Shown one piece after another: positions 2,365 to 61,528 of a stretch of 64,000 bases of DNA (position 1 is its first letter; each line of letters begins with the position of its first letter). A program made the position numbers and the translations under genes. Below the pieces are notes generated by a model. It was not told the DNA's origin. It did not search any database and worked only from the letters and a program-made list of their open reading frames with translations. Source of the stretch: Elusimicrobia bacterium HGW-Elusimicrobia-3 (lineage in GTDB: Bacteria > Elusimicrobiota > Elusimicrobia > Elusimicrobiales > UBA9959); contig PHAL01000001.1 of NCBI GenBank assembly GCA_002840355.1, positions 62,001 to 126,000 on the forward strand, given 5' to 3'.

Positions 2365-3434
2365 AGACCATTCTCGTAACCGGCGGCGCGGGGTTTATAG
2401 GCAGCAACTTCATCCGCTACCTGTTCGGTCCCGGCGGTTTTAAAGGCCGCGTGGTGAACCTGGACAAGCTCACTTATGCCGGCAACCCCGAAAATCTTCT
2501 GGACATAGAAAAAGCGCAGCGCGGCCACTATAACTTCGTAAAGGGGGATATCTGCGACTTCAAGCTGCTGGAGCGGCTGTTCAAGAAGTACAAGTTCGAC
2601 GCCATAGTGCATTTCGCCGCCGAGAGCCATGTGGACCGCTCCATCTTCGGCCCCAAGGATTTCATCGAAACAAATATACACGGCACCTTCGCGCTGCTAG
2701 AAACAGCGCGCCAGGCCTGGGCCGGGCGCAAGGACGTGCGCTTTCACCATATCAGCACCGACGAGGTTTACGGCTCGCTGGGCAGGACGGGCAAGTTCAA
2801 GGAGACCACCCCTTACGATCCCCGCAGCCCATATTCCGCCTCCAAAGCTTCGTCGGACCACCTGGTGATGGCCTACCACCACACCTACGGCCTGCCGGTA
2901 ACCATCTCCAACTGCTCCAACAATTACGGCCCGTTCCATTTTCCGGAGAAACTCATTCCGCTCGTCATACTGAACGCCTTGGACGGCAAGCCGCTGCCCG
3001 TATACGGCGACGGCGCGCAGGTGCGCGACTGGCTGTATGTGGAAGACCATTGCTCGGCCATCTGGCAGGTGCTGCGCAAGGGCCGCCCCGGCCAGACCTA
3101 CAATGTGGGCGGCAATTGCGAGATGAAGAACCTCGACGTGGTGAAGGCCATCTGCGCCGCGCTGGAGGCTGACGAGCCGTCCGCGAAGAACCCGGCCTTG
3201 AAGGGTAAGAAGTACGCCGACCTGATCACTTTCGTAAAAGACCGCCCCGGCCATGACCGGCGCTACGCCATAGATTTCTCGAAGATAAAGAAAGAACTCG
3301 GCTGGCGGCCGTCGGTGACTTTCAAGGAAGGCCTGCGGCATACGGTGCGCTGGTACCTGGCCAACCCGGGCTGGGTCATAGACGTGAAGAACGGCAATTA
3401 CCGCAAATGGATAAAAAAGAACTACAAGAGATGA
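2361..3434 (+). CDS. rfbB: dTDP-glucose 4,6-dehydratase
   Basis: Converts dTDP-glucose to dTDP-4-keto-6-deoxyglucose, the second step of the rhamnose pathway. The 357-residue extended SDR has [12 protein letters not shown] at the N-terminus, STDEVYG with the catalytic acidic pair, [12 protein letters not shown] (YxxxK) and [14 protein letters not shown], all typical of RmlB. The ATG at 2361 is chosen over one 72 bases upstream because it directly precedes the NAD-binding strand and follows AGGGAGA. Order here is A-C-D-B, and the stop overlaps the next start (ATGA). Confidence 0.95.
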
Positions 3435-4177
3435 AGCTGGTCTTCCTGGGCACCAACGGCTGGTACGACAACGCCGACGGCAATACCGTCTGCGCTTTGA
3501 TAAAAACAAAGCGCTGGGACATAGTGCTGGACGCCGGCAACGGCATTTATAAACTGGACCAGTACATAGACGGGACCAAGCCGGTATTTATCCTGCTCAG
3601 CCATTTTCACATAGACCATATAGCCGGCCTGCATACGCTGGTGAAGTTTCGTTTCAAGAAAGGGCTGACCATTTGCGGCGGCTCCGGCGCGCGCAGCGTG
3701 CTGGGCAAATTCGTCAACCGGCCTTTCACCGTGCCGCTGGCCAAGTTGCCCTATCCCGTAAAAATATTGGAATTACCGTCGGAAGCGGACCAGCTGCCCT
3801 TCAGGCTGCAGACGCTGCCGCTGGAGCACGCCGACCCGGTGCTGGGCATGCGCCTGGCGCTGGAGGGAAAAACTCTGACCTATATCACCGACACCGGCCC
3901 CTGCCCCAACGCGGCAGAACTGGCCAAAGGCGCCGACCTGCTGATAACCGAATGCGCCAATCTGCCGGGGGAATTTAACCCGCATTGGCCGCATTTCAAT
4001 CCCGAAACCGCCGGCCGGCTGGCCGCCGAGGCCGGGGCGCGGCGGCTGGTGATGACGCATTTTTCAGCCTCGCGCTACCCTTTCCCGAGCAACCGCGCCC
4101 TGGCGCTGCGCCATGCCCGCAAGGTTTTCCCTGCCGCGGCTACAGCCAGAGACGGGCTGCAAATTCTTCTGAAATAA
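3431..4177 (+). CDS. Metallo-beta-lactamase-fold hydrolase, RNase Z-like
   Basis: The 248-residue protein has the metal-binding motif SHFHIDH (HxHxDH), a later ITDTG and LITECAN block and a C-terminal MTHFS, the arrangement of RNase Z/ElaC-type hydrolases. It starts [15 protein letters not shown], as members of this branch do. The substrate cannot be read from sequence: tRNA 3' processing, a cyclic nucleotide or another phosphodiester are possible. It is translationally coupled to rfbB (ATGA overlap), which is unusual company for this family; a role in sugar metabolism is not established. Confidence 0.8.
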
Positions 4178-55795: not shown

Positions 55796-56095
55796 ATGAC
55801 CGACAACAAAGAAGGCGCGAAGCCGATGCAGCTGGAAGTGCAGATGGACGAGGCCACCGCGCAGGGCACCTACGCCAACCTCGCCGGCGTCACCCACAGC
55901 GAGACCGAGTTCATCTTCGATTTCCTGTTCCTGCAGCCCAACCAGCCCAAGGCCAAGCTGCGCGCGCGCATCATCTCCAGCCCCGTGCACACCAAGCGCT
56001 TCCTGCTCGCGCTGCAGGAGAACATCAAGCGCTACGAGGAACGCTTCGGCGCCATCCCCGAGCGCGCGGTCAACCTGACGCAGGGCCACAGCTGA
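55796..56095 (+). CDS. DUF3467 family protein
   Basis: A 99-residue protein: EVQMDEATAQGTYANLAGVTHSETEFIFDFLF, then ARIISSPVHTKRFLLALQENIKRYEERFG, the conserved pattern of DUF3467. Small, cytoplasmic, function unknown. Good ribosome site GGAGGAC; the promoter probably overlaps that of the divergent secreted-protein gene (AT-rich 55740-55770). Confidence 0.88.
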   Translation: MTDNKEGAKPMQLEVQMDEATAQGTYANLAGVTHSETEFIFDFLFLQPNQPKAKLRARIISSPVHTKRFLLALQENIKRYEERFGAIPERAVNLTQGHS

Positions 56096-56155: not shown

Positions 56156-57484
56156 CTACTTGGCGCCCTGCAGCAGGAAGGCCTGACGCTCCACCGGGAG
56201 GTGGCAGTTGAGCTGGTAGCCCTTCTGCTTGATGCGGGTCAGCGCGTCGCTCGCCATTTCGTCGAGCTGCTCGTCGGAATAGTCCGGATGGGCGTGCCAC
56301 AGCACCAGGTCGCGGGCCTGGGCCTTCTCTACCGCGAAGTCCACCACCACGGACAGGCCCGAGTGGCCCTGCTTCTTGAACGTCTCGTAATCCTTGTCGT
56401 TGTAGACGGCGTCGTGCACGAAGATGTCGGAGCCCTTCACGAAGCCGCCGAGCTTCTCGTCGTAGTCCTGGAAGGCGGTGGCGTCGCCCCAGATCTCGCT
56501 GTCGGGGCAGTAGGAGATGCGGCGGCCGAGGATGTCGAGCACGTAGACCAGGGTGCTGGTGGGATGGTTGGCGTACATCGCCGACAGCTTGACGCCGGGG
56601 AACAGCTCGTAGTTGTCCTCGAGGATCTCGTAGATGTCGATCTTGGCCTTCGGGGCCTGCTTGGTGAGCGAGAACGAGCTGTAGAACGTGGCCTGCGCCA
56701 CCTCCTTGAGCGTCTTCTCGGGGTCGTTGGAGCCGATGAGGTGGATGTTGAAGTGGGGGTCGTGGATGGGCGCGAAGCGGCCCAGGCCCAGGATATGGTC
56801 CATGTGGAAATGCGTCAGGCAGATCCAGATGTCCTTGTAATAGCGCTTCTTCTCCGCTATTTCCTTGCCCAGCTCGACGATGCCGGTGCCGGCGTCGAAG
56901 ATGAAGATGTGCTCCCTGGTCTCCACCGAGAGGCAGGAGGTCTGGCGGCCGTAGCGCGAGGCGGAGTTGGGCAGCGTGGCGGGCAGGCCGCGGGCGCCCC
57001 AGACCGTCATGCGGATCTGGCCGGCGTCGAGATCGCTGGCCTGCGGGTGCTCCTCCTCGCGGATGATGGCGGGCCCGGCCGCGGGCGCTTCCCCCGGGGA
57101 CGGGGCGGGGGCCGCGCCGTCGAGGATGCTCTTGACCGTGTTGGAGAAGGTCTCGACGTTGTAAGGCTTCTGCAGGAAGAAATCGGCGCCGAGCTGGAAC
57201 GCGCGCTGCTTTTCCACGTCGTAGGACTTGCCCGAGACCACGATGATCTTCATGTGCTTGAGCGCGGGGTCCGACTTGACGGACTTGCAGATGTCCATGC
57301 CGGTGATGCCGGGCATCATGATGTCGGTCACGATCATGCGGGGCATCTGGGCCTTGATGGTGGGGATGGCCTCGAGCGAGTCCTGTACAAGCGTCACGGT
57401 GTAGCCCGCGTCGGTGAGCAGGTCGCGCGAAAGCTCCCCGACCATGGGGTCGTCGTCTACGATGATAATGTCGGGATTTGCCAT
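56156..57484 (-). CDS. Receiver domain fused to a metallo-beta-lactamase-fold hydrolase
   Basis: A 442-residue protein. Residues 1-121 form a response-regulator receiver: acidic pocket D10-D12, phospho-acceptor D54 in IVTDIMMPG, and K106 in LQKPYN. A proline/alanine-rich linker (122-157) leads to a hydrolase domain with CLTHFHMDH (metal site at 225-230), ISYCPDSEIWGD and a late WHAHPDYS. The hydrolase resembles phosphodiesterase/RNase Z-like enzymes. Phosphorylation may switch the hydrolysis of a nucleotide or other phosphodiester. No kinase is adjacent; a histidine kinase gene lies 3 kb away. Confidence 0.85.
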   Translation of the reverse strand: MANPDIIIVDDDPMVGELSRDLLTDAGYTVTLVQDSLEAIPTIKAQMPRMIVTDIMMPGITGMDICKSVKSDPALKHMKIIVVSGKSYDVEKQRAFQLGADFFLQKPYNVETFSNTVKSILDGAAPAPSPGEAPAAGPAIIREEEHPQASDLDAGQIRMTVWGARGLPATLPNSASRYGRQTSCLSVETREHIFIFDAGTGIVELGKEIAEKKRYYKDIWICLTHFHMDHILGLGRFAPIHDPHFNIHLIGSNDPEKTLKEVAQATFYSSFSLTKQAPKAKIDIYEILEDNYELFPGVKLSAMYANHPTSTLVYVLDILGRRISYCPDSEIWGDATAFQDYDEKLGGFVKGSDIFVHDAVYNDKDYETFKKQGHSGLSVVVDFAVEKAQARDLVLWHAHPDYSDEQLDEMASDALTRIKQKGYQLNCHLPVERQAFLLQGAK

Positions 57485-57513: not shown

Positions 57514-57519
57514 TATAAT
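57514..57519. promoter_or_regulatory. AT-rich divergent promoter region
   Basis: ACTATAATAGTATAAATTA lies between the divergent receiver/hydrolase and rsmD genes and offers TATAAT on the + strand and TATTAT-like boxes on the other. No clear -35 is visible. Confidence 0.4.
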
Positions 57520-57565
57520 AGTATAAATTAATCCCGTTAAGGAAATGTTTCAACTCCATTAAATT

Positions 57566-58174
57566 ATGATGAGGATAATCGCCGGAACGCACCGCGGAAG
57601 GAAGATCTTCTCGGTGCCCAAAGACAAGTTCGTGAAGCCGATCTCGGCGAGGATACGCCAGTCCTTCTTCGACATCGTGCGCCCGTACATCACCGGCGCC
57701 GTGCTGCTGGACCTCTACGCGGGCGTGGGCACCGTGGGCCTGGAGGCCCTCAGCCGCGGCGCCTCCAAGGTGGTCTTCGTGGAGAAGGAAGGCATCTGCG
57801 TCAAGACCATAGAGAAGAACATCGCCGCGCTGGAGTTCACCGAGAAGGCCAAGGTGCTCAAGGCCGACGTGCTGGCCGGCCTGAAATGGCTGGAGCATTT
57901 TTCCGACTACAAGGGCTACGACATCGTGTTCATGGGGCCGCCTTACCGCACCTCCGAGAACCTGCCGCTGTTCTACAGCGTCGAGACGCTCACCCTGCTC
58001 GCCGAGGCCAAAATAGTCAACCCGACGGCCCTGATAGTGGTGCAGCACCACAAGAAAGAGGTGCTGACGCCCGTCCCCGGCCTGGAGCACGTGCGCCACG
58101 AGCGCTACGGCGACACCGACGTGGACTTCTTCCGGCCAAAGCCGAATCCCGCGGCGCAGGACGTCCGCCCTTGA
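57566..58174 (+). CDS. rsmD: 16S rRNA (guanine-N2) methyltransferase RsmD
   Basis: Expected to methylate G966 of 16S rRNA. The 202-residue protein has IIAGTHRGRKIFSVP, RIRQSFFDIV, LLDLYAGVGTVGLEALSRGAS (SAM motif I) and FVEKEGICVKTIEKNI, as in RsmD. The catalytic motif IV, normally DPPY, reads MGPPY here, so the acidic residue is missing at that position. A second ATG three bases downstream is equally possible. Confidence 0.87.
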   Translation: MMRIIAGTHRGRKIFSVPKDKFVKPISARIRQSFFDIVRPYITGAVLLDLYAGVGTVGLEALSRGASKVVFVEKEGICVKTIEKNIAALEFTEKAKVLKADVLAGLKWLEHFSDYKGYDIVFMGPPYRTSENLPLFYSVETLTLLAEAKIVNPTALIVVQHHKKEVLTPVPGLEHVRHERYGDTDVDFFRPKPNPAAQDVRP

Positions 58175-60253: not shown

Positions 60254-61528
60254 ATGACGAAACTGACGCTGGCGCTGGCGCGAGGAGAAGTGACCACTTT
60301 CTCGAGGAGTTCCTACGAGGTGGTCTTCTCCGTGTTCATGATCGCGCTGGCCTACTTCTACCGCGACAACCCGCAGATCGTCTACCCGCGCATCCTCTAC
60401 TTCTTCGTGCTGCTGCTGGGCGCCAATTTCGCCTTCAACCGCCTGCTCAAGACCCGGGCCTCGGTCAGCCTCTGGGTGCTGGACCTGATGCTGCTGGCCA
60501 ATTTCTGGATCATCACCGGCGTGCTGTACTATTCCGGCGGCAGCGGCTCCTACTTCTGGGTGCTGTACCTGCTGCCGGTCTTCGCCGCCTCGCTGATGGC
60601 CAGCGTTAAGGACGCCGCCGGCGTGGTGCTGCTCTGCGCGCTGGGGCTGGCCGTGTTCAACTGGCCGCTGGCCGGCGTGGACCTGGCCGCCGCCCTGGCG
60701 CTGGCCGTCAAGACGGCCGTGCTGGTCTTCTCGGCGGCGGTGGTGTTCCGCACGTCCCAGTCGCGCAAGGCCGCGGAGGCGGGCATGGCCTTCAAGCGCG
60801 CGCAGGTGGAGAAACTGGAGCGCGAGGTGCTGGCCAAGGAGTCGGAGCTGGTAAAGACCGCCACGGCGGGCGAGGTTGGCGCGCTGGTGAGCGGCGTGAT
60901 GCACGACCTGGGCAACTCCGTCTCGGTGATCCTGCTCAGCGCGCAGCTGATGGAGCAGGACCCGGAGCTCAAGCGCGAGGACCTGGGGCGCATCCTGAAG
61001 GCGGCGCGCTACTCCAAGAGCATGATCTCCAGCGCGATGAGCATCGTGCGCGGCCAGGAGTACGCTTTCGAGGAATTCCCGCTGGGCGAGGCGGCCGAGG
61101 GGGCCGCGCTGCTGACCGAGTACCACGCCCGCAAGCGCGGGGCCGCGGTGGAGGTCAAGACGGCGCCGGACCTGCCGCCGATACGGGCCAGCCGGGCGCA
61201 CGTGGAGCGCGTGCTGGTGAACACCCTGCTCAACGCCCTTTCCTTCGTGCCCGCCGAGGGCGGGCGCGTAACGCTGACGGTGCGCGCCGAGGGGGAGGAG
61301 GCCGTTATGGAGGTGGAAGATAACGGGCCCGGCTTCCCGCCGGCGCTGCTCGCCGGCGGCGTGAAGGCTTTCGGTACCACGCGCAAGGAAAAAGGGGGGA
61401 CTGGGCTGGGGCTGTTCGTCTGCGGCCAGGTGGCCCGCCGTCACGGCGGCACCATGGTGCTGACCAACGTCCCGGGCGGCGGCGCGCGGGTGACCGTGCG
61501 GCTGCCGCTGGCGGGGCCGGTGAATTAG
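60254..61528 (+). CDS. Membrane-bound sensor histidine kinase
   Basis: A 424-residue protein with six hydrophobic spans in residues 20-175, no large periplasmic loop, a coiled coil (about 175-210), the phosphoacceptor in VSGVMHDLGNSVSVILLSAQ (H-box with HDLGN), NTLLNALSFVP (N-box), VEDNGPGFPP (G1) and GTGLGLFVCGQVARRHGG (G2). The short membrane sensor suggests it detects a membrane or intracellular signal. No response-regulator gene is adjacent; the receiver/hydrolase at 56156-57484 is a possible partner. Confidence 0.92.
   Translation: MTKLTLALARGEVTTFSRSSYEVVFSVFMIALAYFYRDNPQIVYPRILYFFVLLLGANFAFNRLLKTRASVSLWVLDLMLLANFWIITGVLYYSGGSGSYFWVLYLLPVFAASLMASVKDAAGVVLLCALGLAVFNWPLAGVDLAAALALAVKTAVLVFSAAVVFRTSQSRKAAEAGMAFKRAQVEKLEREVLAKESELVKTATAGEVGALVSGVMHDLGNSVSVILLSAQLMEQDPELKREDLGRILKAARYSKSMISSAMSIVRGQEYAFEEFPLGEAAEGAALLTEYHARKRGAAVEVKTAPDLPPIRASRAHVERVLVNTLLNALSFVPAEGGRVTLTVRAEGEEAVMEVEDNGPGFPPALLAGGVKAFGTTRKEKGGTGLGLFVCGQVARRHGGTMVLTNVPGGGARVTVRLPLAGPVN

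Follow-up and report, generated by a model that had tools for sequence, protein, structure and literature searches.

What does a cell gain from placing a metallo-beta-lactamase (MBL) domain behind a phospho-receiver, and is hydrolysis the output that such a switch controls? The question is raised by a gene of Elusimicrobia bacterium HGW-Elusimicrobia-3, located in the 64,000-nucleotide stretch of contig PHAL01000001.1 that we analyzed as a whole and call the window. A first-pass annotation had proposed a receiver–MBL fusion at 56156–57484 and left its strand unstated. The gene lies on the minus strand, runs from 57484 to 56156 with the stop codon included, and encodes a 442-aa protein (table 1). 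This frame is supported by its GC content at the three codon positions (0.60/0.37/0.95, vs. 0.93/0.38/0.58 for the plus-strand frame); the plus-strand frame over the same interval looks like a shadow ORF. Pfam agrees with the fusion. Response_reg (PF00072) matches residues 6–116 with 85.4 bits against a curated cut-off of 30.2, Lactamase_B_2 (PF12706) matches residues 218–397 (1.6e-10, 41.4 bits, curated cut-off 27), and Lactamase_B (PF00753) also scores above its curated cut-off (1.6e-6).

The AlphaFold model (mean pLDDT 88.1) contains two folded domains joined by a low-confidence linker. The receiver pocket is complete, with D10–D12, D54, S84, and K106 all present, and the residue numbers first given for D10–D12, D54, and K106 are correct on the minus-strand translation. 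The HxHxDH motif, also reported as intact, corresponds to H225–H230, and the window copy carries a complete set of MBL ligands: H225, H227, D229, H230, H307, D328, and H397. Roles were assigned to these ligands by alignment and fold rather than from the coordinates of the model.

Table 1. Features of the receiver–MBL locus, in window positions
Feature	Position	Strand	Evidence
Receiver–MBL response regulator, 442 aa	56156..57484	-	Domains, AlphaFold model, relatives
CheY-like receiver, residues 1–121	57122..57484	-	PF00072 4e-24
D54 codon	57323–57325	-	D54 in 92/92 distinct rows
K106 codon	57167–57169	-	K106 in 92/92 distinct rows
Linker, residues 122–155, mostly predicted disordered	57020..57121	-	pLDDT <50 at 124–141 and 143–145
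MBL domain, residues 156–440, RNase Z/phosphodiesterase-like	56165..57019	-	PF12706, PF00753, fold matches
H225-x-H227-x-D229-H230 metal motif	56795..56812	-	D229 and H230 altered in some orthologues
H307, presumed site-1 ligand	56564..56566	-	0 changes in 79 orthologues
D328, presumed bridging ligand, PDSE motif with E330	56501..56503	-	E330 in 92/92 rows
H397, presumed site-2 ligand	56294..56296	-	Asn jointly with H230 in 5 orthologues, two genera
D358 (HDA) to H374 (GHS), motif counterpart of the RNase Z HEAT/HST Glu-His pair	56363..56413	-	H374 in 92/92 rows, D358 variable
Back-to-back -10 like boxes, TATAAT on + and TATACT on -, between the receiver–MBL gene and rsmD	57514..57525	.	
rsmD, divergent neighbor	57566..58174	+	TIGR00095 139.9 bits vs. 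cut-off 117.5
Membrane histidine kinase, candidate partner	60254..61528	+	Pfam and co-occurrence

Comparison of the MBL domain with known structures by Foldseek and VIA-align gave RNase Z as best matches (Z 29.3 and 29.1), followed by YhfI (Z 27.4), PhnP (23.6), and yeast PDE1 (23.3). Nucleotide-bound MBLs are also found among its neighbors, and the top ones are mostly phosphodiester hydrolases. The protein shares with RNase Z (Rbn, ELAC) not only the fold but a HEAT/HST-like pair. This Glu-His pair is said to aid proton transfer in RNase Z (excerpt of PMC3433465), and its counterpart would be H374 (GHS) and D358 (HDA), which correspond by motif. Membership of the RNase Z family is, however, ruled out: the score with the TIGR02651 equivalog model is 67.3 for a cut-off of 292.95, the RNase Z motif PxKxRN (excerpt of PMC3433465) is missing from all 92 distinct receiver–MBL sequences. 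The window protein also differs from RNase Z in its fused receiver. T224–H230 also conforms to [T/S]HXHXDH, which defines the atypical class-II phosphodiesterases (excerpt of PMC9293780). Two carriers of this motif, YhfI and Rv1339, cleave cyclic mononucleotides, YhfI with a strong preference for cAMP/cGMP, and the Apyc1 enzymes cut cyclic mononucleotides broadly (excerpts of PMC9117128 and PMC9293780). The window protein resembles this class (YhfI, Rv1339, CpdA of Corynebacterium, and Apyc1 kin) by its PF12706 MBL fold, its THxHxDH motif, and its structural match to YhfI, but it has an additional N-terminal receiver, and the second metal site is altered in some orthologues of the window type. 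Judged by fold and motif, a phosphodiesterase activity of the window copy is plausible. The window encodes another, stand-alone HxHxDH MBL protein (3257–4177), and no other protein of the genome matches PF12706 better.

Receiver–MBL matches (E ≤ 1e-40) were found in at least 65 of 247 Elusimicrobiota genomes, a lower bound because six candidates were scored per genome; the copy matched in genome G175 is divergent and has no rsmD. A scan of the collection returned 56 loci: 36 near full-length copies with 65–97% identity, five with 38–45% identity, one partial copy (L051), and 14 one-domain or part matches. The receiver–MBL gene is usually divergent from rsmD, present at 39 of 41 loci, the remaining two stopping at contig edges. 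Among 20 more distant stretches, 14 have rsmD and the other six contain divergent or paralogous copies. This gene order is kept across families f1, f2, f7, f8, and f10. Of the 78 orthologues with 120 bp or more of upstream sequence, 44 have the opposed -10 like boxes, as compared with a mean of 0.145 and a maximum of 2 in base-shuffled controls; in the 92-row tree described below, the clade containing f1 has them in 44 of its 46 rows, and none of the 32 other rows does. The boxes at 57514–57525 may constitute a two-way promoter, which may in turn account for the stable order of the two genes. A DUF3467 gene (55796–56095), convergent with the receiver–MBL gene, is likewise present at 34 of the 36 loci with 65–97% identity, the other two stopping at contig edges.

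The association with rsmD could also be read functionally. The protein would then be a relative of RNase Z that cleaves or binds RNA under phospho-control, with rsmD perhaps linking it to ribosome work, as the best fold matches, the order conserved in five families, and the divergent promoter motif common to the f1 clade might suggest. We consider this unlikely, given the equivalog score and the lack of PxKxRN throughout the family; moreover, a shared promoter alone can conserve divergent neighbors.

The conservation of the two active pockets was analyzed in 103 collected sequences, of which 92 distinct ones remained after removal of 11 identical sequences: 79 orthologues and 13 divergent or paralogous copies. 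Because THFHMDHI is among the patterns used to find the collection-scan loci, intact copies are over-represented there; the other loci came from a search with the whole protein. In these 92 rows, D54, K106, E330, and H374 are invariant, and S84 (91/92), D12 (91/92), and D11 (90/92) nearly so. The set formed by D229, H230, and H397 is incomplete in 21 rows, 17 of them orthologues (17/79), and 18 of the 79 orthologues have any metal ligand altered, H227 being changed in L088. Five orthologues belonging to two genera carry H230N together with H397N, as predicted by the loss of one metal site. The changes range from a mild D229E in L095 to L073, an orthologue (match from 5714) with rsmD about 3 kb off, where nearly all metal ligands are gone and D54 and K106 are kept. 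The full metal site is retained in the window genus and across most of the family to which it belongs. Loss of D54 or of metal ligands in homologues had been named at the outset as evidence against a phosphorylation-controlled hydrolase. The answer is divided between the domains: D54, like K106, was never lost, whereas ligands of the MBL domain were.

Parsimony on the 79 orthologues requires no change at D54, K106, H307, E330, or H374, but six at D229, four at H230, and three at H397. Because the median MBL column requires 13 changes, site 2 is still conserved above average, yet clearly below the receiver pocket, and most lineages keep it. On the 92-row tree, in which the long branches of the divergent copies make their placement unsure, the site-2 label needs eight changes, at least seven of them forced by supported branches (7–9 over bootstraps). 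This tree and the MBL-domain tree were built with the ligand columns retained.

How far such changes affect activity can be gauged from human ELAC2, in which the attacking water is positioned by D550 and the precursor remained mostly uncleaved when the zinc ligand H548 was mutated (excerpt of PMC11649783). From its numbering, D550 would be the Asp of the HxHxDH motif, and therefore changes of D229 should damage hydrolysis. Metal binding might persist with Asn in place of H230 and H397, and a one-metal mechanism is possible in the site-2-altered orthologues. The MBL domain of these copies looks to be under purifying selection: its dN/dS was 0.033, 0.081, 0.059, 0.086, and 0.099 in the five of eight altered pairs with estimable dS, values that come from three clades and with dS near saturation (1.15–2.26) in four of the five, compared with 0.041–0.279 in nine intact pairs. 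Because site 2 was altered repeatedly and independently and dN/dS nevertheless stays low, the family as a whole is unlikely to depend on two-metal hydrolysis as its indispensable output.

The same observations could be pushed further, to an MBL domain that acts throughout as a metal or redox sensor or as a scaffold and is never a hydrolase, including in the window species. Enzyme-like domains without activity have precedents in the REC-YN-GYP protein PA2572 (excerpt of PMC3411652) and in the N-terminal domain of ELAC2 (excerpt of PMC11649783), and the recurrent alteration of site 2 in domains under purifying selection agrees with this view. This extension is doubtful, since neither the window genus nor the bulk of its family has lost the full site, and the invariance of H374 is most easily explained by catalysis.

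The genome itself encodes a second receiver–MBL protein (L005:904–2247), with the domains in the same order. Using this paralogue as a query, we found matches in 47 of 140 Myxococcota genomes (E ≤ 1e-50), the alignments listed covering the MBL part. Five of the six Myxococcota loci returned (L135–L139) translate as receiver–MBL fusions; L127 does not by the same pattern. These proteins match the window protein in domain content and order, but are distinguished by a THTHWDHIQGF motif, and in the MBL tree the window type and the THTHWDHIQGF type, which groups the L005 paralogue with Myxococcota, form separate clades. A single origin of the fusion found no support among 200 bootstrap trees (0%), in an analysis where several forks are open and the domain cuts of L127 and L134 are loose. 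Site 2 is kept in all seven Elusimicrobiota rows of the THTHWDHIQGF type. At L148:6501–11054, in Myxococcota, Pfam identifies a PAS-HisKA-HATPase-REC-Hpt kinase followed downstream on the same strand by the receiver–MBL gene, an arrangement that fits a two-component output. In two more of the four Myxococcota neighborhoods examined (L150 and L151), an ORF of 1,085 or 1,075 aa, with a start similar to that of the L148 kinase, lies beside the receiver–MBL gene; the fourth, L149, shows no such neighbor. The initial view that outputs of the MBL fold are uncommon fits the literature found, but has to accommodate a second clade in the same genome and in Myxococcota.

The existence of this clade also bears on whether the two domains communicate at all. 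They could perform unrelated tasks, phosphorylation never reaching the MBL domain, and the long disordered linker would be compatible with this. However, all 79 orthologue rows, gathered by searching with the fusion protein itself, are unsplit, the receiver pocket is invariant, and the fusion is found in two separate clades; we regard independent functions as very improbable.

The membrane kinase located beyond rsmD had been put forward as a possible partner. It has a HATPase_c domain (5e-22), a HisKA match of 24.6 bits, slightly below the cut-off of 26.9, and hydrophobic segments in a crude hydropathy scan. Of 247 genomes, 51 contain a match to it (E ≤ 1e-40), and all but one of these (50) also carry the receiver–MBL gene; for L164, a control kinase encoded in the same genome, the corresponding figures are 21 and 18. 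Among the 36 genomes of family f1, 34 have the receiver–MBL gene, 33 the kinase, and 18 the control; in f2, the only two genomes matching the kinase are the only two with the receiver–MBL gene. Common descent accounts for part of this co-occurrence, and the f7 kinase matches, with about 31–39% identity, may not be orthologues. A second control kinase (L158; 45 of 247 genomes, 15 with the receiver–MBL gene) was left out of the comparison, although favorable to the pairing, because its contig looks foreign. This 482-aa kinase (C77:3678–5123) is 100% identical to one in G035, from another family of the phylum, and contig C77 may be a contaminant of the assembly.

The candidate kinase is encoded at 20 of the 41 loci, some of which end short of its position, and in the f2 genome of L067 it lies at most 1.5 kb from the receiver–MBL gene. 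At 12 loci retaining BacA, SpoIID, or SixA beyond the kinase position there is no kinase match, and adjacency was therefore dropped as proof of pairing. As the genome contains 48 HisKA matches, the partnership is a lead, reasonable but unproven: the proposal gains from the shared distribution and loses from the frequent lack of adjacency.

A cyclic nucleotide was among the substrates first envisaged. If the protein were a phospho-regulated cAMP/cGMP phosphodiesterase, the receiver would set the rate of signal removal. PF12706 and the [T/S]HXHXDH motif are as in YhfI and Rv1339, and the window genome has five matches to the PF00211 cyclase family and five to GGDEF. A PF00211 match is present in 64 of the 65 genomes with the receiver–MBL gene versus 43 of the 182 others, raw counts that are not corrected for genome size or descent. 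The median number of cyclases is two in site-2-altered genomes and four in intact ones (16 and 48 genomes, G175 left out). Altered genomes are also smaller, however, and the number of cyclases scales with genome size; once the model includes size, the difference is weak (t = -1.7, or -1.6 with 16 and 47 genomes when G057, where just residues 1–202 of the receiver–MBL protein are seen, is left out of the intact set), and this link to cyclic nucleotides was dropped. A gene for a cNMP-binding protein (L147:10436–10933) lies about 1.3 kb from the L005 paralogue. It was not found beside the other receiver–MBL copies, whose flanks are short, and the neighborhood link, limited to the paralogue of this genome, was not retained either. 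A phospho-regulated cAMP/cGMP phosphodiesterase is improbable. The broader suggestion of a phospho-controlled phosphodiesterase keeps the support of fold, motif, and cyclase and GGDEF matches, but the altered site-2 ligands weigh against it as a rule for the family, and no single substrate is indicated.

We favor, with a probability of about 0.5, a single-gene response regulator in which a phospho-controlled MBL pocket is common to the family and catalysis is optional. It would combine an intact receiver, a flexible linker, and an MBL domain similar to RNase Z and atypical class-II phosphodiesterases, with the full two-metal ligand set in the window species. Phosphorylation of D54, perhaps by the 60254 kinase or by another one, would alter receiver packing or dimerization, and the linker would pass this signal to the MBL domain and change access to its site. 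In the window species, the MBL domain would most likely hydrolyze a phosphodiester, either in RNA or in a nucleotide. Sister lineages whose second metal site is altered would most likely use the same switch to control binding of a ligand, RNA, or protein by the MBL domain, without ordinary two-metal hydrolysis. More tentatively, the output may have been converted repeatedly from a two-metal phosphodiesterase to a phospho-controlled non-catalytic binding module, the receiver remaining frozen and the fold under purifying selection. Such a conversion would form an enzyme-to-pseudoenzyme series within one orthologous, syntenic gene.

Response regulators with enzymatic output include REC-HD-GYP, REC-EAL, and REC-CheB proteins, and Treponema ODP offers a parallel for an MBL protein in signaling. 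As in the former, the receiver of the window protein precedes an enzyme domain, which here is an MBL domain, and some receiver–MBL members have a degenerate active site, as in PA2572. The available part of PMC7666581, on Treponema ODP, does not mention the MBL fold. In the literature found, as far as its accessible parts go, no receiver–MBL protein is described; Galperin's 2010 review, outside that scope, could mention one. The word "lactamase" does not occur in the main text of PMC5847659, PMC1183210, or PMC4558063. The protein of PMC4364456 is an OmpR-type regulator in the excerpt seen and differs from receiver–MBL. In a profile search of the PDB, which gave 285 matches, the 60 that were listed showed nothing but receivers.

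The receiver–MBL gene is a real, conserved response regulator gene. Its parts are ordinary; their combination, and the repeated change of catalytic ligands behind an intact switch, are unusual. If our reading is true, an MBL output module is added to two-component signaling, and one gene, mostly at one locus, provides an evolutionary series in which catalytic ligands were lost several times and the switch was kept. A general question would then become testable: do response regulators of the enzyme type have catalysis or binding as their essential output? The reading would also point to a widespread signaling gene in a largely uncultured phylum.
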